From: a virus
Length of the DNA: 26,726 nucleotides
Strand: one strand, 5' to 3'
IMG/VR virus record: IMGVR_UViG_3300025118_000116
Span: 1 to 26,726 of that record
In this document: positions 1-25,326 of the stretch, piece by piece
Layout of the letters: each line of letters opens with the position of its first letter
How positions within the stretch are numbered: position 1 is the stretch's first letter
Made by a program: the position numbers and the translations under genes
Notes under the pieces: generated by a model
Seen by the model: the letters and a program-made list of their open reading frames with translations, nothing else
The model's database searches: none
Told to the model about the DNA's origin: nothing

Positions 1-3000
1 ATTTCTCAGTATGGAAGAGTAGAAACCAGTTATGACATGGGTTCCTTTGACTTTAGAACTTCTGGAACTGAAGGAGAACTTCTCTTCTTCCCAACTAAAT
101 TCTCTGCCAACAACTTCAATGTTTCGTTTGTCAATATTGGACTTAACAATAGCATAACAGGTGTTGGATCAACATCATTGGGAGATGTTGCAAGAATCGA
201 AACTTTCCAAAAAGAAAATTTCAGTTCCGAAACAAATATTGTTTCTATTGCTTCGACTTACAGATCTGCTCACTTAATTGTCGAAATCAATAATGATGAA
301 GGCGTATTTGAATATGATGAACTAAATCTAATTCATGATGGAACAGATGCAGAACTCATTGAATATAATCAACTTACCAGTAATAATTACAGCAATTTTG
401 GTACGGTTGGACTTGGAACATATGAATGTGATATTAGTGGAGGGAACTTAAATGTTTCGTTTACTCCAAACGCTGGCACTGCATGTACAACGCAAGTATT
501 TGGAATCTTCCTTCCAACTGCTGCTGGTGGTGGTATTGGTAACACGATTGCCATTGGAAACCCTGATGAAGGTATTGGACTGATTGATTCCCATCAAACC
601 ACGATTGCATCTTCTGGAACCCCAGGAATCCATACGATCGCAACTTACACTCATACTGCAGATAATGATTATCAAGCAGCATACTATGTTGTAAGTATTG
701 AAGATACGACTAATAGTCAATATCAAGTCTCTGAAGTTGTTGTTGTAAATGATTCTTCTGATGTTTATGTCACAGAATATGGTAATGTAACAACTGTAAC
801 TGGAATCGGAACCATTGGTGCCTTGAGGACATCAACTAATACTCATTTACAATTTACTCCACCTGCAAGCACCGCAACTCAAGTTCGCGTCTTCCAGATG
901 GCGATTGAGCAAGTAACACCAGCCGATTTTGGTAATGCAGCACTTAGATTGAACAATGGTATTATTGAAGCGTCTTATGGAACTTACACGGGCACTTCAG
1001 CGAATGTTCTGAGAGCATTTACACTCAGACATAGAGAATCAGAGATCTTTAGAAGAGATGTTGATGCTTCTGATACCGATATCATTTCTCTTTCTGAGGA
1101 TTCTTTGGTAGTTCCTGATCACTTCTTTGTTAGTGGAGAGGAAATTCTCTATAGTTATGTAGAAGCGTCTACTCCAATTGGAATTGAGAATACGACGTTC
1201 CCTGGAATTGGCGCTACTGACTTCTTACCCACGCATGGAGTTCCACTTTATGCTATTAAGGTTAATGACTCCACTATTAAGATTGCATCTTCTGCTGAAA
1301 ATGCTTTAGCATCAGTTGCAGTTCCTGTTGGTATTATTACTGCTGGTGTTAGTACTGCACATGCGTTCACTGCAAGAAATCAAAACACTAAGTGTTTGAT
1401 TGCTCTGGATAATATGATCCAGTCTCCAATCGTTGCTACCGCAACAACCACTGGTATCACTTCAACATTCTTCACCACTGAGGACATCATGAAGGTGTCT
1501 GGAATCACATCATTCTTCGGTGGAGACTTGATTCAGATTGATAATGAGATCATGAAGATCAATACTATCGGTATCGGAACCACAAATGCTATCTTGGTAG
1601 ATAGAGGATGGATGGGAACAACTGTAGCGATTCATACAGAAAATGCTATTGTTACCAAGGTGAATGGATCTTACAACATTGTAGATAACACAATCAACTT
1701 CTACACTGCACCTCAAGGCCCAACTCCTATCGGTACTACAACAAATTCACCTGACGAAAGAGACTTTACTGGAATCACAACATTCTCTACATTCCAAGGT
1801 AGAACATTCTTAAGATCTGGATCTGTAGGAGGTTCTACAAAAGCTTATGATAACAACTATGTCTTTGATGACATCTCGGATGGATTCAATGCTACGACTA
1901 AGGAATTCACACTTAAGTCTAATGGTGAAAATGTTACTGGATTTAGTACCAACAATGCAACAGTTCTGATCAGTAATATCTTCCAGGGTCCAACTGGACA
2001 ATTGACATCTAATCAGGATTATACCCTTTCTGAAGGATCTGGAATATCCACGATTACATTTACTGGTGCAGCAACATCATTGGCATCTGATCCAAATAAT
2101 GCAACAATTCCTGTTGGTGGAATCATCGTATCTGTTGGATCCACTGCTGGATTTGGATATCAACCTTTAGTTGCAGCAGGAGGTACATCCCTTGTTTCTT
2201 CAGCAGGAACTATTACATCCGTTAGTATTGGAAATAGTGGTTCTGGATATAGAGTAGGTGTTCAAACTGTCCATGTTGGGATTCAAACCTTTAGTACAGG
2301 ACTTCCTAATATAACTGGTATTGGTACTGCACAGATTGAAAATGGACATATTACGGGAGTTGCCGTTACTAATGGACAAGTATTTTATATTACGAGAGAT
2401 GTATCCAATGTGGGATATACCTCTATAACTGGAATTACGACTATTACTACTTCTAGTGCTCATGAATTAAATGTTGGTGATGAAGTTATACTTTCTGGAA
2501 TTGCATTGACTTGTGAATATGCACCAGCAGTGGCTATTAGTACGGTGGATTACAATAATACTGCTGGTATTATGACTGTGACTACTTCATCTGCTCATGG
2601 TTTAGTTACTACTGGAAAATCAAGTTTTGTTATTCTTTCTGGTATTGGAATGACTTGTGACTTAGATGCTGGGGTGGGTGTACATACGTATCCTAGAACT
2701 ACTGATCCTTATTATACTGGTTCTCCTGTAACTGCTGTTAATAGCACTACTGAATTTGTAATTCCCGTTGGTGTTTCAACTGTTCCTACTTTCCATAAAA
2801 CTGGGGGATTTGTAATACCAGCAATTCGTGCTCCTAGAACCGCTAATTTCTCTACTAGTGGAACTGATCCTGCTGCAGGAGGAACTCCAGTAACAAAAGT
2901 TATTGATAGTACTTCTTTTGTTGTTAATTCAGGTGTTTCTACTAGAGGACATCTTTATGCTAGAGGTGGTACAGTTACAAAACCTTTAGATATAGTATTT

Positions 3001-6415: not shown

Positions 6416-6421
6416 AGAATT

Positions 6422-9400
6422 ATGCCACAAGAAACTAATCTTAACGTCGCGCCATATTTCGACGATTTTGATGCGAATAATGACTATTACAAGGTTTTAT
6501 TCAAACCTGGTTATCCAGTACAAGCTAGAGAATTAAACAATCTCCAGTCCATCCTGCAAAATCAGGTTGAAACTTTTGGCAAGCACTTGTTTAAAGAGGG
6601 TGCTAAGGTAATTCCAGGAAATACGGCATATAACACTTCTTATTTTGCAGTTCAACTGGTAAACACTTATCTTGGTGTACCAGTTAGCAATTACGTTAGT
6701 CGCCTTATGGGCGCAAAAATCACTGGACAAACTTCTGGAGTAACTGCAGTAGTAGAAAAGGTTCTGGTTGATTTTGAGTCGGAAGCAGGAAATACAACAC
6801 TATACATCAGTTACCTTGGATCAGATTCTAGTAATAATACAACGCAAGTTTTTTCTGATGGCGAACTTTTAACGTCAAATGAGACGATTGCTACAGAAAA
6901 CACCATCATTGCTGCTGGTGAACCCTTTGCATCCACTATTCCAATCGGTGCGGCAGCTACTGGATCAGCATTTTCGATCCAAAATGGTGTTTATTTCGCA
7001 AAAGGTTCATTTGTAATCGTAGATAGCCAGACTATTCTTCTTGATCAGTATGGTTCTACTCCAAGTTATAGAATTGGACTTACTTTAAGAGAAGAAATCA
7101 TCAATGCTGATCTTGATCCAACTTTAAATGATAATGCAGGCGGATTTAACAACTTTTCTGCACCAGGTGCGGATAGACTTAAAATCACAGCATTTTTAAT
7201 TAAGAAGCAACCTGACGATTTTAACGATAATGACTTCATTGAACTCGCTACCATTTCAAATGGTATTCTGAGATCTAAAAAACAGTCTACTAATTATGCT
7301 CTCATCCAGGATGAACTGGCAAGAAGAACATATGCAGAGTCTGGTGACTACTATGTAACTCCTTTTGATCTGGTAGTCAAGAACTCTTTGAATGATAACC
7401 TCGGAAACAGAGGTGTATTCAACGCAAATCAATTAACTTATGGGGGTTCCTCCCCATCAGAGGATCTTGCACTATATAAAGTCTCTCCAGGTAAGGCATT
7501 TGTAAAAGGATATGAGATTGAGACTATTAGTCCAACATATCTTGATGTATTGAAGCCTAGAACTTTGAAAGTTCTAGAAGATCAAGCAATCAATTACAAT
7601 ACCGGATCCACACTCAAGTTAAACAGAGTTTTTGGTGCTCCCACAGTCGGAATTGGCAATACTTTTGTCTTAAGTCTTAGAAGTGCAAGAGTTGGAACTG
7701 CGGCAACAAGTGAACAAGGTAAAGAAATTGGACTTGCAAGAGTTTATGACTTTAAGTTAGACTCTGGTTCATATAATGCTGCAAATTCTAATATTAACGA
7801 ATGGGATATCTCTTTATATGATGTTCAGACTGTTACAGAAATCACTCTGAATGAACCAATCACACTTTCAACACCTACTTTTGTCAAAGGTGCGAATAGT
7901 GGAGCAACAGCGTTCTTGAAGTCTTCAGTTGCTGCTGGAGTTGCTTTAACGGTATATGAAAAAACAGGTGAATTCATCAAAAATGAATCATTCATCTTTG
8001 ATGGCGTAGCAAACACCAGAGTTGCAACCTCAGTCACTTCTTTTGGTATTGGAGATGTAAAATCTGTTCATGCAATTACTGGTAGTGCATCAACTATCAC
8101 ATATTTCTCTGCAGATACTATTCAATCCACATTTTTCAGCGTTGGTGTTGCATCTATTTCTGCTGCATATTTTGATGGCACTCCTGCAGGCATTACAACT
8201 GTAGTGAGCACAAATCCATCTTTCCCCGGTGGAATTAAGATCGGAAATCTTGTAAGATTTACAAATACAACATCAAATGATCCAACTTTTGCTTCTGTTG
8301 TAAGTGTTGCTAGTTCTTCTATCAATATTGCTGGTGTAACCACTGTGACTGGAGTCACCGATGGCGCACTTCCAGCAACTCAGTTAAATGTATCGGATTT
8401 CACTGTTGTAGCATCTGCACTTGACGGATCTATCGATAATTCCTTCTACACAGTGATGCCGAAGGAAAATATTGCTGAAATTGACTTAACTGACGCTTCG
8501 ATTAGCATTAGAAAAACGTTCTCAGTCAATATTGTTGATAATGAACTGGGTTCTGTGGTTACTGCAAGTACAAAGGAGACTTTTGAACCATTTGACGTTG
8601 AAAGATATCAATTAATTAGAAGCGATGGATCTACTGAGGTATTAACTTCTGATAAATTTGAGTTTACTAACGGAAATACTCAAATCCAAATTAGAAACCT
8701 TGGATCTAACAACACTTCAGCAACTCTTGTAGCAACTCTCAAGAAATTAAAGCCAAAATCTAAGGTTAAGTTAAAAAATAGAGTCATTAGCATCGTAGTA
8801 GACAAATCATCTTTGTCTTCTTCGGGTATTGGATCAACCACATTGGGTGATGGACTCACTTTTGGCAATTATCCTTTCGGAACCAGAGTTCAAGACGAAA
8901 ATATTTCTCTGAATACTCCAGATATCGTCAGAATTCATGCAGTTTATGAATCTATCAACAATTCTGATCCATCTGCACCTACAATTCAATTAAGTTCAAT
9001 CACTGGGCCTACTGGAAAAACCTCTGATTTGATTATTGGAGAGCAATTTGTAGGACAAGCGACAGGATCTATTGCAATTGTAGCAGAAAGAAATAGTGAT
9101 TCCACAATTCAGTTTATTGCAAAAAATAATATTAATTTTGCAGTTGGTGAGGTTATTGTTTTCCAGGAATCTAACATCCAAGCAGTCAATGCAAATGTTA
9201 CCATTCCTAGTCTTGAAATTTCTTCAGGATTTACGTTCGATAATGGACAAAATACATCTTTCTATGACTATGGTTTCTTAACAAGAAAGAAAGACGCTAA
9301 GGCACCCATAAGAAAACTCAAAGTTTACTTTGAAACTGGATATTATCAGTCAACTGATGAAGGAGATGTTACAACCGTAGCATCTTATGACACATTTGAC

Positions 9401-13916: not shown

Positions 13917-14144
13917 ATGAAACACTTGAAAGTTGAAGGACATTCTCATCTTTATAGAGATCCAAAAACAAACTCTATAATTAATAAAAATTCATCACAA
14001 TATGCCGAATATATGTCAAAAAAGACATTGAAAAAAGAAGAGAATCAAAAGTTACAGAATTTAGAGACAGATGTTGCTAACATGAAATCAGATATTTTTG
14101 AAATAAAAACGTTACTTAGGAGTTTAGCAAATGATGGATCCTGA
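13917..14144 (+). CDS. Small conserved phage protein with C-terminal coiled coil
   Basis: Encodes 75 residues from ATG 13917, chosen over the upstream in-frame ATG 13902 because 13902 lies inside the preceding gene and MKHLKVEGHSHLYRD gives the natural N-terminus, one base after the upstream stop. The VEGHSHLYRDPKTNSIIN pattern resembles small hypothetical proteins seen next to the neck genes of T4-like marine phages (recalled, not searched). Residues about 40-70 (KKEENQKLQNLETDVANMKS and on) have a heptad-like spacing of hydrophobic residues, suggesting an oligomeric coiled coil. No enzymatic motif is seen. Its position suggests a neck or connector accessory role. It overlaps the next gene by 14 bases. 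Confidence 0.75.
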   Translation: MKHLKVEGHSHLYRDPKTNSIINKNSSQYAEYMSKKTLKKEENQKLQNLETDVANMKSDIFEIKTLLRSLANDGS

Positions 14145-14310
14145 TTCAATTGAATTAAGTAATTTGTCAAAAAGTTTTGAATATACTAAATTAGCATCTG
14201 AGATAGATAGTTGTGATGATAGAGATACTTTGAGAAATGTCGCAAAGTCATTTGTTAAGCTTTATTTTAAGCAACAAGAAACAATGTCGGTAATAGGATT
14301 AAATGGCTAA
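14131..14310 (+). CDS. Small acidic helical protein upstream of the neck genes
   Basis: An ORF of 59 residues from ATG 14131, or 58 from the adjacent ATG 14134. The protein reads MDPDSIELSNLSKSFEYTKL, then ASEIDSCDDRDTLRNVAKSF, then VKLYFKQQETMSVIGLNG. It overlaps the upstream gene by 14 bases and the downstream gene by 8, an arrangement typical of real phage genes. It is predicted to be mostly alpha-helical. I recall similar short hypothetical proteins in T4-like cyanophages. The FE-x-IELS/LY-x-QQ layout and length loosely resemble NblA phycobilisome-degradation proteins, but the match is weak and function is unknown. GGAG at 14119-14122 (in ...TTAGGAGTTTAG...) could act as ribosome site. 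Confidence 0.65.
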   Translation: MMDPDSIELSNLSKSFEYTKLASEIDSCDDRDTLRNVAKSFVKLYFKQQETMSVIGLNG

Positions 14311-14707
14311 TCAGAACGTAACTTATAATGTAGCAGGAGGAGTTCCTTATGCTGTAAATTTAAAAATTTATGGCAGATCTACTTTTAGTGATAAGTTTAC
14401 CATTGTCAATCCAGATAAAACTGCTTTCAGGTTTGACACTGGAGTAAATGGTGGAAATTGGACTGGATCTTCTGCAATGTCGAAGAGTGTTGCTGTTGGC
14501 GCTACATTAGGAGTTACAACTGTTTTCTCGGTTGGATTTACAAGTGCTGCAGGAGGTGTCATGACACTTTCTCTGAGTTCTACTGACACTGCAAATCTGA
14601 AACCAGGAAGATATGTATATGAAGTTTTGGTAAGTTCTGGTGCCACAATTTACAATATTATAAACGGAAATGTATTGGTAGCTGCTGGTATTGCGCCAGC
14701 ACTATAA
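14303..14707 (+). CDS. Small beta-sandwich virion protein
   Basis: Encodes 134 residues starting MANQNVTYNVAGGVPYAVNL. TAGGATTAA just upstream supplies a GGA ribosome site for ATG 14303. The composition and layout (beta-rich; a FRFDTGV segment; GGVMTLSLSSTDTANLKPGR followed by YVYEVLV and NGNVLV) resemble the N-terminal immunoglobulin-like domains of phage receptor-binding or baseplate proteins such as the BppU N-terminal family, where an xxTxxLxxGxYxYDlxl pattern is usual. It lies just before gp13, where T4 has wac (fibritin), so a neck- or tail-decoration role is possible. It is not fibritin: there is no long coiled coil. The family resemblance is recalled, not searched. The gene's last codons overlap a TATAAATA late-promoter box. 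Confidence 0.72.
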   Translation: MANQNVTYNVAGGVPYAVNLKIYGRSTFSDKFTIVNPDKTAFRFDTGVNGGNWTGSSAMSKSVAVGATLGVTTVFSVGFTSAAGGVMTLSLSSTDTANLKPGRYVYEVLVSSGATIYNIINGNVLVAAGIAPAL

Positions 14708-14710
14708 ATA
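14703..14710 (+). promoter_or_regulatory. T4-type late promoter box (TATAAATA) before gp13
   Basis: A perfect TATAAATA, identical to the T4 late -10 consensus, overlaps the stop codon of the preceding gene. ATG 14735 of gp13 is 24 bases downstream of the box, and AGAGGT (14718-14723) between them is a plausible ribosome site. Confidence 0.65.
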
Positions 14711-14734
14711 CTTAGTATAGAGGTATATGTTTAA

Positions 14735-15595
14735 ATGGCGCAACCAGGTACTAGACAAGAACTAATTGATTATTGCCTGAGAAAACTGGGAGCACCAGTT
14801 TTGGAAATCAACGTTGCAGAGGAGCAGATTCAAGATCTGCTTGATGATGCTCTGCAAATTTTTTATGAAAGGCATTTTGATGGTGTTCAACAAACTTATC
14901 TAAAGTATAGAGTAACTGACGATGATGTAAAAAGAGGAGAAGCACGTCCTCCAGGTGCAAGTGGAAAAGATCAAACAGGCATTACTACTTCAACTGCAGA
15001 AACAACTATTGTTGGAACTGATGTAACTTTCACATATCACGAAAATAGCAATTATTTACAAATCCCCCCCTCTGTCATTGGAATCACCAGAATTTTTCAA
15101 TATGATGAATCACGTTCTGCAAGTTTTTCCAATCTCTTTAGTTTCAAATATCAATTGTTCCTAAACGATATTTACTATTTCGGTGGAACTGATTTGTTAA
15201 CATACTCGATGAGTATGAGTTATCTTGAGACGATTAATTTCCTTTTGAATACTCACAAGCAAATTAGATTTAATCAAAGATCAGATAGACTTTATCTTGA
15301 TGTTGATTGGACTCAGTTAAAAAAAGATGATTTTCTAATTATAGATTGTTGGAGAACAGTTGATCCTGCAGATTATGCTAGAGTTTATAATGATTCTTTT
15401 CTAAAACCATATCTTACTGCAATCATCAAACGTCAATGGGGACAGAATTTGATGAAATTTCAGGGTGTTAAACTTCCAGGTGGTGTAGAACTTAATGGTA
15501 GACAAATCTATGATGATGGCGAAAAAGATATTGAAAGAATTATGGAGAAAATGTTCAACACCTACGAACTTCCTCCTCTTGACATGATCGGCTAA
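14735..15595 (+). CDS. gp13: Neck protein gp13 (head completion)
   Basis: Encodes 286 residues, close to T4 gp13 (309). The N-terminus (TRQELIDYCLRKLGAPVLEI followed by NVAEEQIQDLLDDALQIFYE) is diagnostic of T4-like gp13, which with gp14 closes the filled head and forms the neck to which the tail attaches. The middle is rich in aromatic residues (FSFKYQLFLNDIYYFGG; a YSMSMSYLETINFLLN helix), and the C-terminal part contains the conserved-looking IKRQWGQNLMKFQGVKLPGG and ELNGRQIYDDGEKDIERI segments. A TATAAATA late promoter and AGAGGT ribosome site precede it. The stop overlaps the start of gp14 as TAATG, suggesting translational coupling of two partner proteins. Confidence 0.95.
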   Translation: MAQPGTRQELIDYCLRKLGAPVLEINVAEEQIQDLLDDALQIFYERHFDGVQQTYLKYRVTDDDVKRGEARPPGASGKDQTGITTSTAETTIVGTDVTFTYHENSNYLQIPPSVIGITRIFQYDESRSASFSNLFSFKYQLFLNDIYYFGGTDLLTYSMSMSYLETINFLLNTHKQIRFNQRSDRLYLDVDWTQLKKDDFLIIDCWRTVDPADYARVYNDSFLKPYLTAIIKRQWGQNLMKFQGVKLPGGVELNGRQIYDDGEKDIERIMEKMFNTYELPPLDMIG

Positions 15596-18114
15596 TGGCA
15601 TTAAATCCTTTTTTCCTGCAGGGTTCTCAAGGAGAACAAAGTCTTGTTCAAGACTTGATCAACGAACAGTTGAGGATGTATGGTGTTGAGGTTTATTATA
15701 TTCCTAGGCAATATGTAACACAAAATACTATTATTAGAGAAGTAATAACTTCAGAGTTTAATAATTCGTATCCTATTGAAGCATATGTTAATAATTTTGA
15801 CGGATATGGAGATAATACGCAGTTGCTTTCAAAGTTCGGTATTCAAGCAACTAATGAAATTAATTTGATCATCTCTCAAGAAAGATTTAAAGAATATATC
15901 ACGCCACTGATTAGAAATCTATCAAACGTTAAACTTGCCACCAGGCCAAAAGAAGGTGATTTAATATATTTTCCGCTTGGTGATAGACTTTTTGAAATTA
16001 AATTTGTTGAGCATGAAAAACCCTTTTATCAATTACAAAAAAATTATGTTTATGAATTGTCATGTGAATTGTTCCGCTATGAAAACGAAGTTATTGATAC
16101 TGATATTGAAGAAATAGATGATAATATTCAAGATCAAGGATATAATATTACCTTGACTATGGTGGGATCTGCTGTTACAACTTCTGCAATTGCGGGAATT
16201 GTAAATGGTGGAATAAGACTCATATCCCTAACAAATAGAGGTGAAAAATACACTGTTGCACCTAGAGTTGCTATTTCTTCAGCACCTTCTGGTGGGTTAA
16301 ATGCAATTGGTATTTCAACGTTGCTTGGTGGACTCACCAATGAGAGTGACGGAACACAGGTTGGATCAAAAGTTCAGGGTGTTCAATTACGAAATTCTGG
16401 ACGTGGATATACTGTAGCACCAGGTGTTGTATTTGTACCGGAAACAGGTGTGGGAGCAGCTGCGACTACTATTATTGCTGATGGTGTTGTAGGAGTTAAC
16501 ACAATTTCTGAGGGTGGATCCGGGTACACTAGTGCTCCAATTGTTACATTCTCAACACCGAAACATGTCGGAGCTGCTGCTACTGCAGTGCTCGACACAC
16601 CAATTGTAGGAAATGGTGTAAGTATTGTCTCTGCTCCTATTAGCATTGGTGCGTCTGCTTTCTTATTCCATGGAGGTACTACTGGTGGAGTATTCTATAA
16701 AACTGTACCAACAGTAACATTTTCTGAGCCAACTGGATCTTCAGAGGTGGCAACTGCAGTTGCAACTATTACTGATTTTGAAACAACTGGGGGAAATGTT
16801 GCTACTCTTGCTTTAACGGATGGTGGTAGATTTTATACATCTGCACCTACTGTATCAATCTCTCATCCAGGATTTAGTTTTGTTGGAGCAACTATAGGTA
16901 TTGCTGGTTCTTCTATCGATCCAGGTTCTATTGCATTTAGCACTACTGGCAGAGCATATACAACTGCTCCTACTGTAGCAATATCTACATCTGGAACAAT
17001 GGCTGCTCCCACACAGGTTGCTGTTGGTATTGCTACTATACATCCTATTACAGGTATTGTAACTGCAGTCTCTTTCAATGATGATGATGCATGGGCAGTA
17101 GGTACTAGTGCAACAATTGGTGCTGGATATACCGTGGCACCTAGTATTTCTTTCTCTGGAAATCCATCACCAGTACAAGCAACTGGTACTGTTACTGTGT
17201 CCATTGCTGGAACAGTAAATTCAATAAGCATTGCTAACAGTGGATTTGGATATATTAATTCCATACCAACTGTTACAATTGCAGCGTCTGCAGGAATTAA
17301 TACTGAATTTATAGCGACTGGTATTGCTACCATGAGATTTGATTCTATCAAAACAGTTGGTACTATATCTACTGAATCAAATCAAATTACTGGCATATCA
17401 ACAGTTGGTGTTATTGCTGGAGATAGAGTTCGTCTTACCTTCCATCATGACGATAATATTGTTTCAAACAACTTTATTTCTACAACAACATATGTCTCTT
17501 CTATTGGTGTCGGAACTATATTCCTTTCAGAAGATTCAACAAGTGTAGGAATTGCTACAACATCATTTGAATTTGGTATAGATCAATGTGGAATTGTAAC
17601 TGGAATTCTAATTCAAAATGGTGGAGGTGGATATTTAACACCTCCTACTGTAACAATATCTAATGATCCTTCAGAGAAAAACTATGTTGAATTGATAGTT
17701 GGAGTTCATACCGCAAGAGGTGTATCTGCCATAAATGCTGGTATTGTTACAGAGATAAGATTAATTGATGGTGGTGCAAAATATGTTATCCCTCCAACAA
17801 TCACTGTTGGATCTCCAACAGGTGTTGGAACTGGATCATATGAGTACAATGAAGTAATTACGGGATCTGTAAGCGGAACAAGCGCACATGTTAATTCTTG
17901 GGATGCTACAACAAATACTCTAGAATTGAAGATTATCTCTGGATCATTTAGTGTTGGAGAAACATTATTAGGATCTGCTAGTGGTGCAAGCAGGGCTGTT
18001 CTTACAATTAACACAGACGATGTTATTGATCCATATACTGACAATGATAACATTCAAAATGAAGCGAATGCTATCTTAGATTTTACCGAAGTCAATCCTT
18101 TTGGTACTCCATAA
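15595..18114 (+). CDS. gp14: Neck protein gp14 with large repeat extension
   Basis: Encodes 839 residues, over three times T4 gp14 (256). The first 175 or so residues (MALNPFFLQGSQGEQSLVQD; MYGVEVYYIPRQYV; then KEGDLIYFPLGDRLFEIKFV and EHEKPFYQLQKNYVYELSCE) match T4-like gp14, the second head-completion/neck protein. From about residue 210 to 740 comes a beta-repeat region with roughly ten GxxYTxAPxVxIS-like units. Residues about 753-805 (NEVITGSVSGTSAHVNSWDA, then a TLELKII...GSFSVGETLLGS stretch) form another common structural module. The C-terminal tail ends DFTEVNPFGTP, which I recall from cyanophage gp14. The repeat region therefore sits as an insertion between conserved ends and could project from the neck. 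It starts by TAATG overlap with gp13. Confidence 0.92.
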   Translation: MALNPFFLQGSQGEQSLVQDLINEQLRMYGVEVYYIPRQYVTQNTIIREVITSEFNNSYPIEAYVNNFDGYGDNTQLLSKFGIQATNEINLIISQERFKEYITPLIRNLSNVKLATRPKEGDLIYFPLGDRLFEIKFVEHEKPFYQLQKNYVYELSCELFRYENEVIDTDIEEIDDNIQDQGYNITLTMVGSAVTTSAIAGIVNGGIRLISLTNRGEKYTVAPRVAISSAPSGGLNAIGISTLLGGLTNESDGTQVGSKVQGVQLRNSGRGYTVAPGVVFVPETGVGAAATTIIADGVVGVNTISEGGSGYTSAPIVTFSTPKHVGAAATAVLDTPIVGNGVSIVSAPISIGASAFLFHGGTTGGVFYKTVPTVTFSEPTGSSEVATAVATITDFETTGGNVATLALTDGGRFYTSAPTVSISHPGFSFVGATIGIAGSSIDPGSIAFSTTGRAYTTAPTVAISTSGTMAAPTQVAVGIATIHPITGIVTAVSFNDDDAWAVGTSATIGAGYTVAPSISFSGNPSPVQATGTVTVSIAGTVNSISIANSGFGYINSIPTVTIAASAGINTEFIATGIATMRFDSIKTVGTISTESNQITGISTVGVIAGDRVRLTFHHDDNIVSNNFISTTTYVSSIGVGTIFLSEDSTSVGIATTSFEFGIDQCGIVTGILIQNGGGGYLTPPTVTISNDPSEKNYVELIVGVHTARGVSAINAGIVTEIRLIDGGAKYVIPPTITVGSPTGVGTGSYEYNEVITGSVSGTSAHVNSWDATTNTLELKIISGSFSVGETLLGSASGASRAVLTINTDDVIDPYTDNDNIQNEANAILDFTEVNPFGTP
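16230..17812 (+). repeat. Ten-copy GxGYTxAPxVxIS protein repeat inside gp14
   Basis: Degenerate protein repeats, too diverged to be obvious at DNA level. Units seen in order include EKYTVAPRVAIS, RGYTVAPGVVFV, SGYTSAPIVTFS, FYKTVPTVTFS, RFYTSAPTVSIS, RAYTTAPTVAIS, AGYTVAPSISFS, FGYINSIPTVTIA, GGYLTPPTVTIS and AKYVIPPTITVG. Each is preceded by a glycine-containing turn (NSG, EGG, DGG, TTG, NGG) and followed by variable alanine/threonine-rich sequence. Spacing varies, so it is an array of short beta units rather than a strict tandem repeat. Confidence 0.85.
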
Positions 18115-18145: not shown

Positions 18146-19150
18146 ATGTTTGAGTATTTTTATCACGAAATTTTAAGAAAGACAATTATTGCTTTCGGTA
18201 CTCTTTTTAATGGTATTGAAATCAAGCACACTGATTCGTCTGATGATGTGACTGAGGTTATCAAAGTACCTCTTGCATATGGACCTACTCAAAAGTTTTT
18301 AGCAAGACTGGAGCAGTCTGCAGAGTTGAGTAAGTCAACTCAAATTTCTCTTCCAAGAATGTCATTTGAATTTGTTGGATTACAATACGACAGTTCTAGA
18401 AAAGTAACAACAACTCAAACATTTGTTACTACGGATACAGATGACAAAACTGAGGTAAAAAAAGCATACATGCCAGTGCCATATAATATGGCATTTGAGT
18501 TAACTGTTTACACTAAATTGAACGACGACATGCTTCAGATCGTCGAGCAAATTCTTCCATATTTTCAACCAGCATATAATTTATCAGTCAATCTGGTTAA
18601 AGAGGTTGGAGAAAAGAGAGATATTCCCGTTGTCATCGAAAGCATTACAATGCAAGATGATTATGAGGGAGATTTTACTACTAGAAGATCTTTATATTAT
18701 ACAGTCAGATTCACTGCAAAAACATATCTGTTTGGCCCTGTTTCTTCTGCAAGCAAAGATCTCATCAAAAAGGTTCGCGTCGGATATGTCGAAGGTGGAG
18801 ATACAAAAACTCCTACAAGAGACGTTACTTATTCTGTCGTTCCCAGGGCAGTCAAAAACTACACAGGAGATGAGATTACAACACTCTCTCAAGATGTTGG
18901 TGATTCAGCAAAATATCTTGAAGTTGCAGATACCTCTGGAATTTCTGATGCAAGTTACATTGTTATCGACAATGAGCAGATGTATATCCTTGAGATTATC
19001 TCTGGAACTAAACTCAAGGTTGAGAGAGGAACGGATGACACAACAAAGGCAAGTCACGTCTCTGGAACTGGTATCGGACTGATTACTGCTGCAGATAATG
19101 CTTTAATCGAAGTCGGAGACGACTTTGGTTTTGATGGAGAAGTATTCTAA
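18146..19150 (+). CDS. gp15: Tail completion / sheath stabiliser gp15
   Basis: Encodes 334 residues against 272 in T4. The N-terminus MFEYFYHEILRKTIIAFGTL followed by FNGIEIK closely parallels T4 gp15, which opens MFGYFYNSSFRRYATLMGDL. The VPLAYGPTQKFLARL, LPRMSFEFVGLQYD and PVPYNMAFELTVYTK segments fit the family. Gp15 caps the finished tail tube and sheath and joins the tail to the neck. Beyond about residue 250 lies an extra segment (YLEVADTSGISDASYIVIDN, then EQMYILEI and LKVERGTDDTTKASH) that is not part of the T4 core; it resembles the IDNEIM...RGWMGTT module of the gp7-position protein. A TATAAATA promoter precedes the gene. The stop and the gp16 start share TAATG. Confidence 0.93.
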   Translation: MFEYFYHEILRKTIIAFGTLFNGIEIKHTDSSDDVTEVIKVPLAYGPTQKFLARLEQSAELSKSTQISLPRMSFEFVGLQYDSSRKVTTTQTFVTTDTDDKTEVKKAYMPVPYNMAFELTVYTKLNDDMLQIVEQILPYFQPAYNLSVNLVKEVGEKRDIPVVIESITMQDDYEGDFTTRRSLYYTVRFTAKTYLFGPVSSASKDLIKKVRVGYVEGGDTKTPTRDVTYSVVPRAVKNYTGDEITTLSQDVGDSAKYLEVADTSGISDASYIVIDNEQMYILEIISGTKLKVERGTDDTTKASHVSGTGIGLITAADNALIEVGDDFGFDGEVF

Positions 19151-19638: not shown

Positions 19639-22600
19639 ATGACGGAAGATAATAAAAATCTACCTTCTATTAATGATTTTACCGACTCTGGAGAGGATTT
19701 ACCTTCCGTAAAAGAGTTTATGGTGGAGGAGTCTCTGCCATCAGTAGAAGATTATATAGAGACTGAAGAAGAAGAGATAGAAGAAGAAACAACAGAGGAA
19801 CCTGTAGAAACAGCAGAGGATCTTACAGAAGTATTACGTTTAATCAGCGACGTAAGAAGGGATATCCCTGATATTCCTGAAATTAAGTATTACGACAAAG
19901 AATTAGAGCAACTTGCTGAGCAGATCTCTCAAGTCAGAAATGAGATCCCAGAAGTTCCAGAAGTAAGATATTACGAGAAAGAAGTAGAAGCAATCTGTGA
20001 GCAGATTGATCTTGTCAGATCAGAAATTAAAGATCTGCCAGAAGTCAAGTATTATGATGAGCAAGTCGATGCTATTGAAGATAGAATTGACAATCTTCAG
20101 ACTGAGGTAGCAAATCTTCATGAAGTCAAGTATTATGACGATGAAATCGTTGCAATCTGTGAGGCAATTGACAAAATTAGAGCGGAGATTCCAACTTTCC
20201 CTAAATGGGTAAATGAAGTAAATGAAGTTCCCGACTTCTCTTGGATTGGCAAGACTTTCAGTGTCATTGATGACGATTTCATCAAAATCAACGATGTTGT
20301 TGAAAACTTAAAGACAAGATTTTCTACTGATTTTGATACGTTAGCAGAAAGATTTGAAACTACTGATTTTAACACTAATGTTAATATCAATAGTAAGGCT
20401 GAGAAAATCAATCAAAGAATTGATGAAGAGAAGAAAAAGATTTGGAAAGAACTTAGTGATGCATCTTTGAAAATCTGGGAGCATCACAAAACTTTTAAAG
20501 ATGATGATAGAAAGTTAAAGAAACAAATTCTTGGAGAATACAATAAATTAAAGAATTCTCTCAATAAGTCTATTAAAGAGAGCACGGAACAGAATGTAAA
20601 GACTGATGAGTTACTTCTCAAATATTTTAGTGAACTAAAAGAAGAAATTACGGGACTTCCTGAAGTCAAATATTATGATGAGGATATTAGTAATGTAAAA
20701 GGTGAAATTAAAGCACTACAAAAAATTGTAGAGGAGATTAAATCATCTCAAAAGGGTTTTAATGAAGAATTAAAGCAACTAAATGAAGTTGCACTTGAAG
20801 AACCTCATGATGTACCTCAAAGTGTTGGCGGGCCGCAAGATCCTTTAACACCTATCGATCAGAAGTTTGCTACTTTTAAAGATTTAAAACAGCACTATCA
20901 AATCTTCATCAATAGAATTCAATCTCAACTGTCTGCTGTAGGTGGCGGCGGCGCTGGACGCATTCCAGATTTGGATGACGTTGAATTTGATGCTGGCATT
21001 GGCACTGGAAAACTCCTTATTTTCAATGGAGCAAAGTGGGTTGGTATTGCTAGCACCGCTCTTGGTGGTGGCGGTGGCGGTATTGGTACTGAAGGAAGTA
21101 TCAATACTACGGGTATTATTACCGCTGCTGCTCTTGATACCGATTTTATTACAGGTATTGCTGCAACATTCTCAGGTAATGTCACTGTCGGCGGTACGAT
21201 TACATATCAAGATGTAAGACACATTGATGCTGTCGGTATTATTACAGCACAGCAAGGTATTCAAGTTCTAGCAAATGGACTTGATATCACTGGAGTTGGA
21301 ACATTTGTCGGAACGTCTGGCACAACAATCATAGGTGGTGTAGGAAATACAGCACTATACGTTGATGGTAATGCCAGAGTTGTTGGTATATTTACTGTTG
21401 GTAGAGCATCTATTACAATTGATGGTGATAATGATATTATTAGTATTGGTAATACAGTAACCATTACTGATTCCTATATTAATATTGGCGCAGGGGTATC
21501 TATTAGTGCATTTGCTTCAGGTATTAACTCTGCTCCTAATGTATTGTATGTGGCTAAAGATGGTACAGACACTAATAACGGTACTTCCATTGATAATGCA
21601 TTTTTGACTATCGGCGGAGCAGTTGGTGCAGCTACCTCTGGTTACACTATTAAGGTTTTATCTGGCAATTATCAAGAATCTAACCCTATCGAAGTTCCTG
21701 CTTTTGTTTCTATTGTTGGTGATGATCAAAGAAGCGTAAAGGTTAGTGGAACTATTACTCATAAAGATATATTCTCCGTGAGAAAGGGAGTCAAGTTGGC
21801 AAATATGACATTCCAGAATCATGTAGCACCTGCAGCGGCAGTGGGATTCCCCACTGGAGAGATTGCAGAAAACGTAGGTGGTGGAAGATGGAAAGGACCT
21901 TACATTCAAAATTGTACCAGTAGTACTACAACTGGAACGGGCATTAGAATCGATGGGAATCAAGCAAGACTATTAAAAGCAATGAATGTAGATGCCTTCA
22001 CTCAATATAATGAGGGGGGTGTAGGTGTTGCTGTTACTAATGGGGGATTTGCCCAATTAGTATCTCTCTTCACTATTTGTTGCAATGAAGCGGTTACTTG
22101 TGATAAAGGAGGACAAGCAGATATTGCTAACAGTAACTGTAGTTTTGGTACTTATGGATTAGTGGCTAGAGGAGTTAATGATTTACAATATTCAGGTATC
22201 GTCACTTCTTCTGCATCTGCTGCTCAAGATAATATTGTCCTTAATATAACCAACACCAATCCTAGTTACAATATCAGTGGTGTCGATTATACACATCAAA
22301 CTGGAGTAGCAACGGTTACTACATCTGCTGCCCATAATTTCCAAGTAGGCATGGGAGTTACTCTTGCTGATATTGTCTTTAGTTGTAGTTATGGTAGTAA
22401 GACGTATCCTTATAGAAGGCCTTATGTATTTGAAGTAGATTCAATTCCTGCTACTACTAAATTTGTAACTAATTTAGGTATCTCTACTGTAGCGCATACT
22501 TATTCATCGGGAGGAACTGCTAGAATTGAAACTGATAGGCCTTATGATGGACAAGTATGTTATTTTGATACCCTTTATAATACAGTTGAAACTATTGCTG

Positions 22601-23220
22601 TGGGTTCGGGAGGGACTGGATATACCTCTACTCCTGTTGTAACTGTTGCAACTCCTGGAGGTCCTAATGGAGAAACCGCTACTGCTTATGCGACAGTAGA
22701 GAATGAATCTATTGCTTCTATTACAATTATTAGTAATGGTAGTCAATATGAATCTACTCCTACAGTGACTATTGGAGGCCCCAATGTTGGTATTAATACT
22801 GCCACCGCAACAGCAAGTATGGCTCCTATCTATTATACAATAAATAGTTCAACTCCAGTTACGGCTGGAATAACTACATTAACTCTTGATGAAAATCTCA
22901 TCAACACAGTTGGGGTTGGATCTACTGCATACTTCTTTGAAGTTAGTAAGATTATTGCTAGTTCACATACATTTGAATATGTTGGAGCTGGTGATTTAAT
23001 TGCTAATGCTACACCAAAACGTGGAGGTGTGACAGTTCAAGCAAATGAAGTTGTTACTGAGTCTGGGGGTAAGGTTCTTTACACCAGTACGGACCAATCA
23101 GGCAACTTCAGAATTGGTGATGATTTACAAATCAATCAAAATACAGGCACAATTAGTGGAAAATCATTCTCTAAGAGTTTGTTCTCAGAGATGACACCAT
23201 TCATCCTTGCATTAAGTTAA
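19639..23220 (+). CDS. Long tail-fibre-like protein: coiled-coil stalk plus beta-helix
   Basis: Encodes 1193 residues. The acidic N-terminus has three LPSVxxF-type motifs (residues 8, 21 and 33) and a glutamate-rich stretch. Then come four 27-residue repeats beginning [PH]-E-[VI]-[KR]-Y-Y-[DE] (residues 80, 107, 134 and 161), a fifth isolated copy at 341, and long charged helices, giving a coiled-coil stalk to about residue 390. Glycine hinges follow (GGGGAG and ALGGGGGG) around an IPDLDDVEF/NGAKWVGIAST segment typical of fibres. From residue 635 (VLYVAKDGTDTNNGTSIDNA) the sequence looks like a right-handed parallel beta-helix to about 860. A TTSAAH module, two GxGY repeats and the terminal SGNFRIGDDLQINQNTGTIS segment follow. 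It is probably a trimeric host-recognition fibre. No clear Shine-Dalgarno is seen in the 48-base upstream gap. Confidence 0.82.
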   Translation: MTEDNKNLPSINDFTDSGEDLPSVKEFMVEESLPSVEDYIETEEEEIEEETTEEPVETAEDLTEVLRLISDVRRDIPDIPEIKYYDKELEQLAEQISQVRNEIPEVPEVRYYEKEVEAICEQIDLVRSEIKDLPEVKYYDEQVDAIEDRIDNLQTEVANLHEVKYYDDEIVAICEAIDKIRAEIPTFPKWVNEVNEVPDFSWIGKTFSVIDDDFIKINDVVENLKTRFSTDFDTLAERFETTDFNTNVNINSKAEKINQRIDEEKKKIWKELSDASLKIWEHHKTFKDDDRKLKKQILGEYNKLKNSLNKSIKESTEQNVKTDELLLKYFSELKEEITGLPEVKYYDEDISNVKGEIKALQKIVEEIKSSQKGFNEELKQLNEVALEEPHDVPQSVGGPQDPLTPIDQKFATFKDLKQHYQIFINRIQSQLSAVGGGGAGRIPDLDDVEFDAGIGTGKLLIFNGAKWVGIASTALGGGGGGIGTEGSINTTGIITAAALDTDFITGIAATFSGNVTVGGTITYQDVRHIDAVGIITAQQGIQVLANGLDITGVGTFVGTSGTTIIGGVGNTALYVDGNARVVGIFTVGRASITIDGDNDIISIGNTVTITDSYINIGAGVSISAFASGINSAPNVLYVAKDGTDTNNGTSIDNAFLTIGGAVGAATSGYTIKVLSGNYQESNPIEVPAFVSIVGDDQRSVKVSGTITHKDIFSVRKGVKLANMTFQNHVAPAAAVGFPTGEIAENVGGGRWKGPYIQNCTSSTTTGTGIRIDGNQARLLKAMNVDAFTQYNEGGVGVAVTNGGFAQLVSLFTICCNEAVTCDKGGQADIANSNCSFGTYGLVARGVNDLQYSGIVTSSASAAQDNIVLNITNTNPSYNISGVDYTHQTGVATVTTSAAHNFQVGMGVTLADIVFSCSYGSKTYPYRRPYVFEVDSIPATTKFVTNLGISTVAHTYSSGGTARIETDRPYDGQVCYFDTLYNTVETIAVGSGGTGYTSTPVVTVATPGGPNGETATAYATVENESIASITIISNGSQYESTPTVTIGGPNVGINTATATASMAPIYYTINSSTPVTAGITTLTLDENLINTVGVGSTAYFFEVSKIIASSHTFEYVGAGDLIANATPKRGGVTVQANEVVTESGGKVLYTSTDQSGNFRIGDDLQINQNTGTISGKSFSKSLFSEMTPFILALS
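19876..20199 (+). repeat. Four 27-residue KYYD repeats in the fibre stalk
   Basis: Four consecutive units begin PEIKYYDKELEQLAEQI, PEVRYYEKEVEAICEQI, PEVKYYDEQVDAIEDRI and HEVKYYDDEIVAICEAI. Their first residues are 80, 107, 134 and 161, an exact 27-residue (81-base) period. A fifth unit, PEVKYYDEDISNVKGEI, occurs alone near 20659. DNA similarity between units is partial, so this is an older internal duplication. Confidence 0.92.
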
Positions 23221-23221
23221 A

Positions 23222-23554
23222 ATGGCACAATTAGCACTGAATAGGTTTCAAACAGAAACCTTCTCTTTAACAACCAACAAAGCTACTGCGTATACTGCAC
23301 CAACAGGATACACTGGTATTGTTCTGTATGCTCATGTGACGAACGTTGGAGCAGCATCGACTACATTCTCTATGTTTCACAATAGAAGTGGCACAGAGAC
23401 TGAAATCGTCGTTGATGCGACTGTGCCTGCTAACGATGCATACATCCCTCTGGAGGGAAAACTTGTTATGGAGACTAGTGATACCATTACCGTCCAAGCA
23501 GCTGCAAACAGCGAACTTAAATTAATACTCAGTGTTTTGGAGACTGCTAACTAA
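23222..23554 (+). CDS. Small fibre-associated structural protein
   Basis: Encodes 110 residues starting MAQLALNRFQTETFSLTTNK; ATG is one base after the stop of the long fibre gene. The sequence is beta-rich and uncharged (AYTAPTGYTGIVLYAHVTNV, then a SMFHNRSGTETEIV segment and IPLEGKLVMETSDTITVQAA). The pattern of a small beta-sandwich with a late LEGKLVMETSDTITV segment is common among phage proteins annotated as capsid decoration or fibre accessories, but I cannot name a family. Its place between two fibre genes and its TAATG overlap with the next gene suggest a tail-fibre accessory or collar function. Confidence 0.75.
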   Translation: MAQLALNRFQTETFSLTTNKATAYTAPTGYTGIVLYAHVTNVGAASTTFSMFHNRSGTETEIVVDATVPANDAYIPLEGKLVMETSDTITVQAAANSELKLILSVLETAN

Positions 23555-23853
23555 TGGGAAAACTACTTAGTACAAAGAACAGAGCACTACCTGCAGTTGA
23601 TGGTTACGTCCTTAAGGGCAATACCGATGGTTCTCAATTTTGGGCATCACCAGCGACAGGCAATGTTACTACTATCAACGCAGTTTTAGTTGTTAGTGAA
23701 CGTGACGATTCTTTTACAAGAGTGTCATTATCAAATTATACGTATACTGTACCAGATAGAAGTGGCGCGGAAGTTACCATTTCTGGCATGTCAGTAACCA
23801 CTAGAGCAGGCTTAGAAGCCCCACTACAATCATTCATAACATCAGTATCCTAG
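23554..23853 (+). CDS. Small fibre-cassette protein
   Basis: Encodes 99 residues starting MGKLLSTKNRALPAVDGYVL. The VDGYVLKGNTDGSQFWASPA phrase resembles the short linker found in many tail-fibre proteins (xDGxVLxxxxDGSxxxW). The rest is beta-rich (NYTYTVPDRSGAEVTISGMS). It starts by TAATG overlap with the upstream 110-residue gene and ends 4 bases before the distal fibre gene, so the three are probably translated together. No enzymatic motif is seen, and the exact role is unknown. Confidence 0.72.
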   Translation: MGKLLSTKNRALPAVDGYVLKGNTDGSQFWASPATGNVTTINAVLVVSERDDSFTRVSLSNYTYTVPDRSGAEVTISGMSVTTRAGLEAPLQSFITSVS

Positions 23854-23857
23854 TACA

Positions 23858-25198
23858 ATGGCAAACAGATATCCATTAATTCTTGACAGCAGTAATAATA
23901 AAATCAAGGAACTCCCCAGTGGAGATAATCTTGATCTGACTGGTGTAGGTATTAGTAGCGTAAGCAGTGTCAGCGTAGGCACAGCGGTTACTATAGGATC
24001 CTATGGAGTTCATGCTACTGGCATTGTAACTGCCACTAATTTTGTAGGTGATGGTTCAGGAATCACTGGTATTGCAAACACCGCTTTCATTGTAGGTACT
24101 GCGGCAACATTTAGTTCTGAAGTTTTTGTAGGCACAGCGGTTACTATAGGATCCTATGGAGTTCATGCTACTGGCATTGTAACTGCTACTGGTTTTGTAG
24201 GAATTGTAACTGGTAATGTAACTGGTAATGCTGATTCAGCAACCACTCTGGAAACGGCACGTAACATCGGTGGTGTTTCTTTCGACGGTACTGGTGATAT
24301 TAATCTTCCTGGTGTAAATGAATCAGGTAATCAGAATACATCAGGTACTGCTGCTGGATTAAGTGGAAGTCCAACAATAACAGTTGCCAAAGTAAATGTT
24401 GGTACTGCAGCAACGATACATCCTACAGGTGGTATAACTGCTGGAATTGTTACTGCTACAAGTTTTGTTGGCCCATTAACGGGTAATGTTACTGGTAATG
24501 CATCGGGTTCATCTGGTTCATGTACTGGTAATGCTGCTACTGCTACAATCCTTGCTACGGCACGAAATATTGGTGGTGTATCATTTGATGGTAGTGCTGC
24601 AATTAATCTTCCTGGTGTTAACGCAACTGGAACTCAAGATACCTCTGGAAACGCTGCTACTGCAACACTTGCTACGAACGCACAGGGACTTTCTGGTACT
24701 CCTGATATTGCGATTGGAGATCTTACTGCATCTGGAAACGTTTCTATTGCAGGAACTCTGACATACCAAGATGTAACCAACATGGATGTGTTGGGTATTG
24801 GTACGTTCCAACAGGGTATTCAAATTCTTGCTAATGGAGTTAATGTTACTGGTTTCTCCACGTTTAAGACTGGTGTAAACATCACTGGTGTTTGTACGGC
24901 AACTGACTTTAACTCAACATCTGATACGTCAGTTAAGAAAAATATTCAAGTAATTGAAGATCCTCTCGCATCAATCGTTAGAATTGAGGGTGTTACTTTT
25001 ACATGGAAAGACACTGGCAAGAATTCTGCAGGTGTTATTGCTCAAAACTTAGAAAAAGTTCTGCCAAATCTTGTTAGCAATGGAGACTTAAAATCTGTTA
25101 ACTATAACGGATTAATTGGATATCTGATTGAGGCAGTTAAGAGTCAGCAAGCACAAATTGATGAATTAAAATCTAGATTAGACTCACTCGATTCATAA
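23858..25198 (+). CDS. Distal tail fibre with C-terminal S74 intramolecular chaperone
   Basis: Encodes 446 residues starting MANRYPLILDSSNNKIKELP. The central region is repeat-rich: two VGTAVTIGSYGVHATGIVTA copies (one 59-bp stretch identical), then two copies of TARNIGGVSFDG followed by INLPGVN, a phrase common in phage fibres. Residues about 298-325 (GTLTYQDV, QQGIQILANG) match a segment of the 1193-residue fibre. The last 92 residues are a Peptidase_S74 domain: SDTSVKKNI (Ser355-Asp356), FTWKDTGKNSAGVIAQNLEK, VLPNLVS and VNYNGLIGYLIEAVK, ending in a short coiled coil. In this family the domain drives trimer folding of a beta-stranded fibre and cuts itself off at the conserved serine; Ser355 is the expected site. 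It is likely a receptor-binding fibre. Confidence 0.88.
   Translation: MANRYPLILDSSNNKIKELPSGDNLDLTGVGISSVSSVSVGTAVTIGSYGVHATGIVTATNFVGDGSGITGIANTAFIVGTAATFSSEVFVGTAVTIGSYGVHATGIVTATGFVGIVTGNVTGNADSATTLETARNIGGVSFDGTGDINLPGVNESGNQNTSGTAAGLSGSPTITVAKVNVGTAATIHPTGGITAGIVTATSFVGPLTGNVTGNASGSSGSCTGNAATATILATARNIGGVSFDGSAAINLPGVNATGTQDTSGNAATATLATNAQGLSGTPDIAIGDLTASGNVSIAGTLTYQDVTNMDVLGIGTFQQGIQILANGVNVTGFSTFKTGVNITGVCTATDFNSTSDTSVKKNIQVIEDPLASIVRIEGVTFTWKDTGKNSAGVIAQNLEKVLPNLVSNGDLKSVNYNGLIGYLIEAVKSQQAQIDELKSRLDSLDS
23975..24033 (+). repeat. 59-bp direct repeat, copy 1
   Basis: Identical over all 59 bases to 24128-24186, including synonymous positions; similarity continues for about 15 more bases with three mismatches. 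The copies are offset by 153 bases (51 codons), so both are read in the same frame. Each contains the 12-base palindrome ATAGGATCCTAT (23993-24004 in this copy). Confidence 0.97.
24128..24186 (+). repeat. 59-bp direct repeat, copy 2
   Basis: Second perfect copy of the repeat at 23975-24033 within the distal fibre gene. Perfect identity with in-frame spacing indicates recent duplication or gene conversion. Confidence 0.97.
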
Positions 25199-25221: not shown

Positions 25222-25326
25222 ATGAAAAAGTGTCCTCCAGGACAACAACAAAAGACAGGCGCTGCAAAACCCACTTATGTAAAGACTGATAGTCCTAGGA
25301 AGAAAAAAAATGAAAGAATCAACTGA
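25222..25326 (+). CDS. Small basic ORF overlapping the DUF192 gene
   Basis: A 34-residue ORF, MKKCPPGQQQKTGAAKPTYV followed by KTDSPRKKKNERIN. It fills the space between the distal fibre gene and the DUF192 gene and overlaps the latter by 17 bases in another frame. The CPPG opening and PTYVKTDSPRKKK tail resemble short cysteine/lysine-rich segments of other marine phage proteins (from memory). No good ribosome site is seen. The overlap contains a run of eight A, so the ORF could instead be the N-terminal part of the next protein, joined by frameshifting or separated by an indel. Whether it is translated alone is uncertain. Confidence 0.45.
   Translation: MKKCPPGQQQKTGAAKPTYVKTDSPRKKKNERIN

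Follow-up and report, generated by a model that had tools for sequence, protein, structure and literature searches.

The 839-residue open reading frame between gp13 and gp15 in this virus record is a head-closure protein of the T4 gp14 type. Its identity is ordinary, and its architecture is that of a new, long variant in which a large insertion of beta repeats separates a conserved core from a conserved tail. The insertion is a mosaic, and pieces of this arm have been gained, lost and swapped between related phages. We lean towards a reading in which the head-closure ring bears external beta arms that each have an exchangeable, probably distal, segment; we infer the outward placement and the contact role.

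The gp14 gene and its surroundings

The window (the whole stretch of DNA that was analysed, a 26.7-kb virus record of 26,726 nt) has a T4-type gene order (Table 1). It opens with a baseplate wedge protein, which is gp7 by its position. After gp8 come a 2497-aa protein, two small ORFs, gp13, gp14 and gp15, followed by the terminase small subunit, fibre genes and the start of the terminase large subunit. The fibre genes (19639-25198) lie between the two terminase subunit genes, and the same is true for S-SM2. The end of the protein at 23858-25198 resembles an S74-type chaperone domain. Directly before the terminase large subunit, DUF192 and DUF6321 are joined in one protein (25310-26389). We found psbA in none of the 15 partial contigs, which are short, but it is present in S-SM2 and S-CAM9.

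The 839-aa protein matches the head closure Hc2 family phrog_460 at 9e-138, and its residues 3-181 match Pfam PF11649 (T4_neck-protein) with 108.5 bits against a cut-off of 25. The gene is flanked by gp13 (phrog_211) before it and gp15 (PF16724) after it. A phmmer comparison of window gp14 with the solved T4 gp14 gave 7.6e-27 over residues 3-173. The stopper beta-barrel fold of the core is matched in the predicted structure as well: Foldseek paired the modelled core with T4 gp14 (9mkb_0) at 2.7e-08, and in structure alignment residues 24-164 reached Z 9.5 over 98 residues with T4 gp14 (9lu4_M), while the modelled core reached Z 9.6 with the Pam3 neck (8hdr_A). The original prediction of an enlarged gp14 was confirmed, with 839 residues against 256 in T4.

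Window gp15 has a C-terminal extension that matches the tail-fibre family phrog_9851. The extension is present in S-SM2 too and, judged by length, is apparently absent from P-SSM2 (280 aa) and HTVC008M (about 271 aa).

Table 1. Positions of the features discussed in the text, in window coordinates.
Feature	Position	Strand	Evidence
Baseplate wedge protein	1-4818		phrog_2885
gp8	4856-6415		
gp13, head-tail adaptor Ad2, without fibritin-binding domain III	14735..15595	+	phrog_211 4e-46; 9/50 domain III columns filled
gp14, head closure Hc2, long form, 839 aa	15595..18114	+	PF11649; phrog_460; position between gp13 and gp15
gp14 core, T4-like head-closure (stopper) fold, residues 1-180	15595..16134	+	Foldseek; structure alignment; phmmer
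Beta-repeat insertion, residues ~181-815	16135..18039	+	Repeat cores; DNA identity to L001
Long-form block, ~382 residues (323-704), separates long from short marine gp14	16561..17706	+	Alignment
Exchange block, 359 nt, residues 419-538	16850..17208	+	L084 differences; L085 identity; block scan
Separate beta domain in the model, residues 583-661	17341..17577	+	Structure matches below the Z 8 caution line
Conserved marine C-terminal tail, short helix (815-827) and NPFGTP end	18037..18111	+	
gp15, tail sheath stabiliser with C-terminal extension	18146..19150	+	PF16724 3.5e-88; alignment with T4
Fibre protein	19639-23220		

The beta-repeat insertion

L001 is a close relative of the window with a short gp14, and the comparison of the two marks out the insertion. 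Per 120 nt, DNA identity is 0.81-1.00 from 14095 to 16134, drops in the interval starting at 16135, is 0.53-0.78 in the insertion, and recovers in the interval starting at 18055, from where it is 0.83-1.00 through gp15. An insertion had originally been placed at 16134-17850, with about 530 residues. It is present, but it is somewhat larger than that (Table 1). The count of ten repeats was upheld: 'G..Y..P.V.I' cores start at residues 216, 269, 307, 364, 410, 452, 509, 550, 676 and 726, against a mean of 0.07 cores in 200 shuffles. A tandem array at the DNA level was ruled out with Tandem Repeats Finder, which reported only two trivial arrays of 11-12 nt, so the repeats have diverged at that level.

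Both ends of the protein had been described as conserved and gp14-like. This stands for the N-terminal part, where the matches to T4 stop at residues 173-181. It does not stand for the C-terminal end, as '..DF.E.NPFG' is kept among marine gp14s and has no match to T4.

Pfam had no family above its cut-off for the insertion or for residues 583-661. The repeat profile of phrog_460 also matches other virion proteins of the window, namely the fibre protein at 19639-23220 (residues 951-1051, 1.3e-6), the baseplate wedge protein at 1-4818 (residues 1285-1354, 6e-5) and, weakly, gp8 (residues 205-272, 7e-4), which suggests a repeat module common to several virion proteins. HTVC008M has repeat-type matches to phrog_460 in other proteins and none within gp14.

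The model of full gp14 (77 sequences) had a pLDDT of 72.9 and a pTM of 0.46. When the 382-residue long-form block was modelled alone the pLDDT was 55.8, too poor for structure searching. Helix in the modelled insert is confined to turns of 3-4 residues. The predicted separate beta domain at residues 583-661 resembles part of the tail tube protein of Mystique (9n71_A, 103-177; Z 7.8 over 72), 8eci_1 from phage Bridgette (Z 7.5 over 65, 1.8 A) and eukaryotic Uba1 (Z about 6), all of which fall below Z 8, the caution line of the structure alignment. In addition, 83 residues of the insertion (aligned range 178..816) resemble 760-852 of a large T4 baseplate chain, 5iv5_BJ, at Z 8.0; we take this chain to be gp7. 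The remaining insert is predicted to be beta-rich, with no clear match among the structure matches listed.

Long and short forms of gp14

When relatives were fetched by the gp14 core alone (the best 80 of at least 599 loci, 72 of them with a complete gene), 64 of the 72 complete genes encoded 454-482 aa, two encoded 563 aa and six encoded more than 800 aa. The short marine forms of 454-482 aa have 3-4 repeat cores. T4 is therefore the wrong yardstick for window gp14. The window protein falls outside the short form with its 839 aa, 10 cores and extra block of 382 residues. When the two forms are aligned, this single homologous block (residues 323-704 of window gp14) is what defines the long form as a discrete class.

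We then have 137 complete genes in the pooled set, about half of them fetched with the 382-residue block itself and two contigs counted twice: 64 of 454-482 aa, two of 563 aa and 71 of 829-864 aa, with nothing between. With only the best 80 loci taken in each of three fetches (of at least 599, of 161 for the block search, and of 93), these size-class frequencies are not population values. The 71 long genes have 7-11 repeat cores. Between the block search and the loci fetched earlier there were 88 ORFs with the block, and the NPFG tail of gp14 closes every one of the 84 that run to a stop codon. The close relatives L024 (2060-3508, 482 aa) and L027/L030 (L030 at 5001-6692, 563 aa) differ by 81 residues in gp14, a possible step of repeat gain.

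Among isolates, gp14 is 470 aa in P-SSM2, 481 aa in S-SM2, 657 aa in S-CAM9 and about 290 aa, with repeats absent, in the pelagiphage HTVC008M. With low-complexity filtering on, the 382-residue block had no match at 1e-5 among 50,697 isolate records, and at a limit of 10 it matched 310 isolate records, none of which covered 80% of it. A search with the complete 839-aa sequence aligned ten records, S-PRM1 and S-CAM9 included, over at least 80%, the best at ~35% identity. Among the papers listed from the literature covered, which has few subscription papers and no bioRxiv, none dealt with size classes of gp14 or with exchange of its alleles.

Gain and loss of the long form

Long forms are scattered among short ones in the gp14 core tree, and at least 11 changes between the two are needed, five of them forced by starred branches. 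The tree was made with a quick method and SH-aLRT support from 122 rows (distinct core or label) of 142 labelled, after removal of rows truncated at the N-terminus or without a clear label. Four loci whose contigs are cut inside the gp14 gene (L034, L036, L078 and L094) were labelled long.

Seven sister groups include both forms, and in these the sizes of gp15 and gp13 are mostly equal beside long and short gp14, in line with an arm that is not packed into those joints. For example, gp15 has 334 aa and gp13 has 286 aa in both the window-type L084 and the short L001. The exceptions are in gp15, which is 11-12 aa longer in L105/L118 and 4 shorter in L058/L135. Across the loci, gp15 has at least 339 aa in 20 of 65 long loci versus 3 of 58 short ones, and gp13 has at least 287 aa in 10 of 56 versus 0 of 57. 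This looks like an effect of clade. A clear link between these sizes and gp14 length was not borne out, the slightly larger proteins being more frequent in the long group apparently by clade.

Exchange within the insertion

L084 is near-identical to the window over 13.1 kb apart from gp14, and 132 of the 164 differing aligned positions are in the exchange block. Of the other differences, 14 are in 17785-17996, a 6-base indel accounts for six, and another six fall where the alignment stops. L085 matches the window at 0.97-1.00 identity (~99%) over 16855-17214, and at 0.45-0.79 in the rest of gp13 and gp14. L082 and L083 differ in the exchange block (0.61 and 0.70). In the five sequences compared, the block edges are in conserved repeat motifs.

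A scan of block positions found mosaic pairs at 416 (22 import-like and 10 export-like), 452 (8), 632 (16), 596 (5), 560 (1) and nowhere else, and these pairs, like the close pairs below, are not independent events because some contigs occur twice among the loci (L002/L091, L058/L154, L081/L171, L082/L172, L085/L173 and L086/L174). At the main block, the import-like pairs go back to a single transfer that involved two groups, and the export-like pairs form three sets: window/L081/L082 versus L083/L084, L115 versus L101, and L103/L112 versus L139. We judge that there were probably three or four independent exchange events at the main block. The second cluster of mosaic pairs, at residues ~632-739 (17488-17811; 16 import-like pairs), suggests another exchange segment.

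The window-type allele is found in L081, L082, L085 and L086 (L082 and L085 are from one sample), and the L084-type allele in L083 at 92%. Both types are in contigs of several sample numbers, which makes assembly chimeras a less likely explanation. Among the newly fetched loci, an ORF of L187 (from 1735, 807 aa) has the exchange block and lacks the NPFG tail, the only such case in 78 block-bearing ORFs, and the exchange-block ORF of L185 is cut short at 516 aa.

Exchange of the gp14 insert is sporadic. In close pairs of the same length, the insert was more diverged than all flanks by >0.05 in 7 of 121 pairs; in the other 114 it was not. Three of the seven pair a single locus with L058/L154/L155, and two of those partners are the same contig. 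As a mean of 40 long forms, variability in the exchange block does not exceed that of the adjoining segments. The window's exchange block had no DNA match in isolates with low-complexity filtering on.

Fibritin and the whisker site

The original prediction set the insertion where T4 carries its fibritin whiskers, a placement that is not supported. According to a preprint (PMC12270204), T4 fibritin docks on domain III of gp13 (residues 190-239) and not on gp14, which binds gp15, on the tail side, through its C-terminal region. Just 9 of the 50 columns of domain III are filled in every one of 122 marine gp13s (118 loci, the window and 3 isolates; HTVC008M left out), whereas 48-50 are filled in all three fibritin phages. 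With the domain gone from all 122, the whisker site has been lost and was not taken over by gp14. S-CAM9 gp13 (L162, 4871-5992; 373 aa) has an insertion of its own, elsewhere than domain III.

That no fibritin gene is visible, as first noted, is correct for the window: the fibritin profile phrog_1056 had no match across the whole of it. This profile did match T4 wac, our control, and it matches T4, Aeromonas phage 31 and KARL-1. It had no match in the complete marine genomes of S-SM2, S-CAM9, P-SSM2 and HTVC008M, nor in 12 partial relatives. The families listed for 15 window proteins (for 23858-25198, 25 of 36) contain no fibritin family. With phrog_9687, T4 alone matched among 15 records; the window search with it had no match. 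In that window search and in one with PF07921 no control genome matched either, and hence neither is evidence by itself. A tblastn search with T4 wac returned 1428 records, and Synechococcus and Cyanophage are absent from the ten commonest names, which are followed by 28 further names. T4 fibritin is a coiled coil. We rejected fibritin homology for the window proteins, as there was no profile match. The modelled insert has no long alpha-helical coiled coil.

T4-kind whiskers thus appear to be absent across the group, whatever the size of gp14. This weakens the idea that gp14 replaces them, although its insertion may do a similar job.

How the arm may be placed and used

The phage is a marine, cyanophage-like T4-type phage, and its gp14 core would form the usual neck ring, with six copies if the T4 ring is a guide. 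In each subunit, the beta-repeat chain would leave the end of the core barrel and return to the conserved C-terminal tail. Six copies with one chain each would give six beta arms per virion, outside the neck near the gp14/gp15 junction. Six inserts of ~640 residues should be far too bulky for the neck channel, judged by the volume of the residues and the channel widths given for T4 in PMC12270204, so the outward projection that was originally suggested is the likely geometry. The arm is modular, with the ~382-residue block present in some close relatives and absent from others, and a ~120-residue segment inside it swapped between phages. Since residues 419-538 are near the middle of an insertion that is anchored at both ends, this segment is probably distal.

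The pattern resembles the exchange of tail-fibre tips, and by that analogy it suggests a surface-contact role under selection for variety. The arm might touch the surface of a host or particle, or long fibres of the same phage. In its full version, this idea has the head-closure protein form a ring of six adhesin-like arms, whose tips are swapped as cassettes and diversify as tail-fibre tips do, which would make the neck a second contact surface, overlooked until now; we put it forward as a tentative possibility. The tightly conserved length of the long form is a counterpoint: a fixed structural part would explain it just as well as an adhesin. In the literature, positive selection on cyanophage gp14 was reported in one lineage, where the authors state that the signals match the false-positive rate (PMC5112629), and in pelagimyophages the region from the VrlC gene to gp14 is described as holding a hypervariable cluster for host recognition (PMC7029224).

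A structural part could be a collar or clamp, with the repeats packed round gp15 and the top of the sheath to strengthen the head-tail joint, and with the exchange being ordinary recombination of little functional meaning. The binding of gp15 by the C-terminal region of T4 gp14 (PMC12270204, as above) agrees with this, as do the nearly constant long-form length, the baseplate-like stretch of the insertion, and marine gp15 with its extra C-terminal part and its larger size at more of the long loci. However, gp15 is mostly equal in size beside both forms within sister groups, and between window/L084 and L001 the form switches on a flank that is 0.81-1.00 identical, and we regard a clamp as rather unlikely. 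Our doubts are greater about a whisker substitute, in which the six arms would hold or sense the long tail fibres as T4 fibritin does. The missing fibritin matches in the window, the 12 partial relatives and the four complete marine genomes would suit it, and so would a marine gp13 that lacks the fibritin-binding domain. Against it are a different ring, a different attachment and no predicted coiled coil. HTVC008M has neither wac nor gp14 repeats and the insert is much shorter in most near relatives, which argues that a large gp14 is not needed when whiskers are missing. We give very little credence to growth of the insert by slippage and recombination without any use. The 81-residue difference between L024 and L027/L030 and the recurrence of the repeat in other virion proteins are what such growth might leave behind, but the long block has been kept (its columns average 72% identity in 57 sequences, and many do not vary at all), the gp14 sizes are bimodal and not continuous, and the repeats form no tandem array in the DNA.

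Neck connectors are usually regarded as conserved plumbing. If a modular, swappable outer arm is what gp14 carries, then marine T4-like phages vary the neck surface and possibly use it, and the part of the neck that bears the arm may face the outside world beyond joining head to tail. The gp14 sizes seen in marine T4-like phages are about 290, 454-482, 563, 657 and 829-864 residues, and residues 419-538 are a defined target for asking what the neck touches.

Comparison with known systems

Window gp14 has the sequence and predicted fold of its core in common with T4 gp14 (PF11649; PDB 9mkb, 9lu4-9lu7), and the gene order 13-14-15-16 is shared too. The two differ in length (839 and 256 aa) and in what follows the core, which is a C-terminal region of ~80 residues in T4, disordered before tail attachment, and ~635 residues of beta repeats with an NPFG tail in the window. 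The gp14s of the marine Kyanoviridae (P-SSM2, S-SM2, S-CAM9 and HTVC008M) have both the core and the NPFG tail, and the first three carry the window-type repeat, with 3, 4 and 5 cores, respectively, versus 10 in the window.

As neck appendages, the T4 fibritin (wac) whiskers are like the window arm by analogy only: fibritin is the product of a separate gene and sits on gp13 domain III, and the gp14 insertion has no homology to it. The neck fibres of cyanophage A-1(L) (gp82-gp81-gp80) and the whiskers of Sf14 (gp30/gp31) are neck appendages that are not described as fibritin. According to the reports on them (PMC10966104, PMC11821841), the carbohydrate-binding module at the tip of the A-1(L) neck fibre failed to bind its host, and the appendages of both phages are separate proteins on the neck ring (gp5 and the adapter gp37, respectively), whereas the appendage of the window would be an insertion in the closure protein itself.
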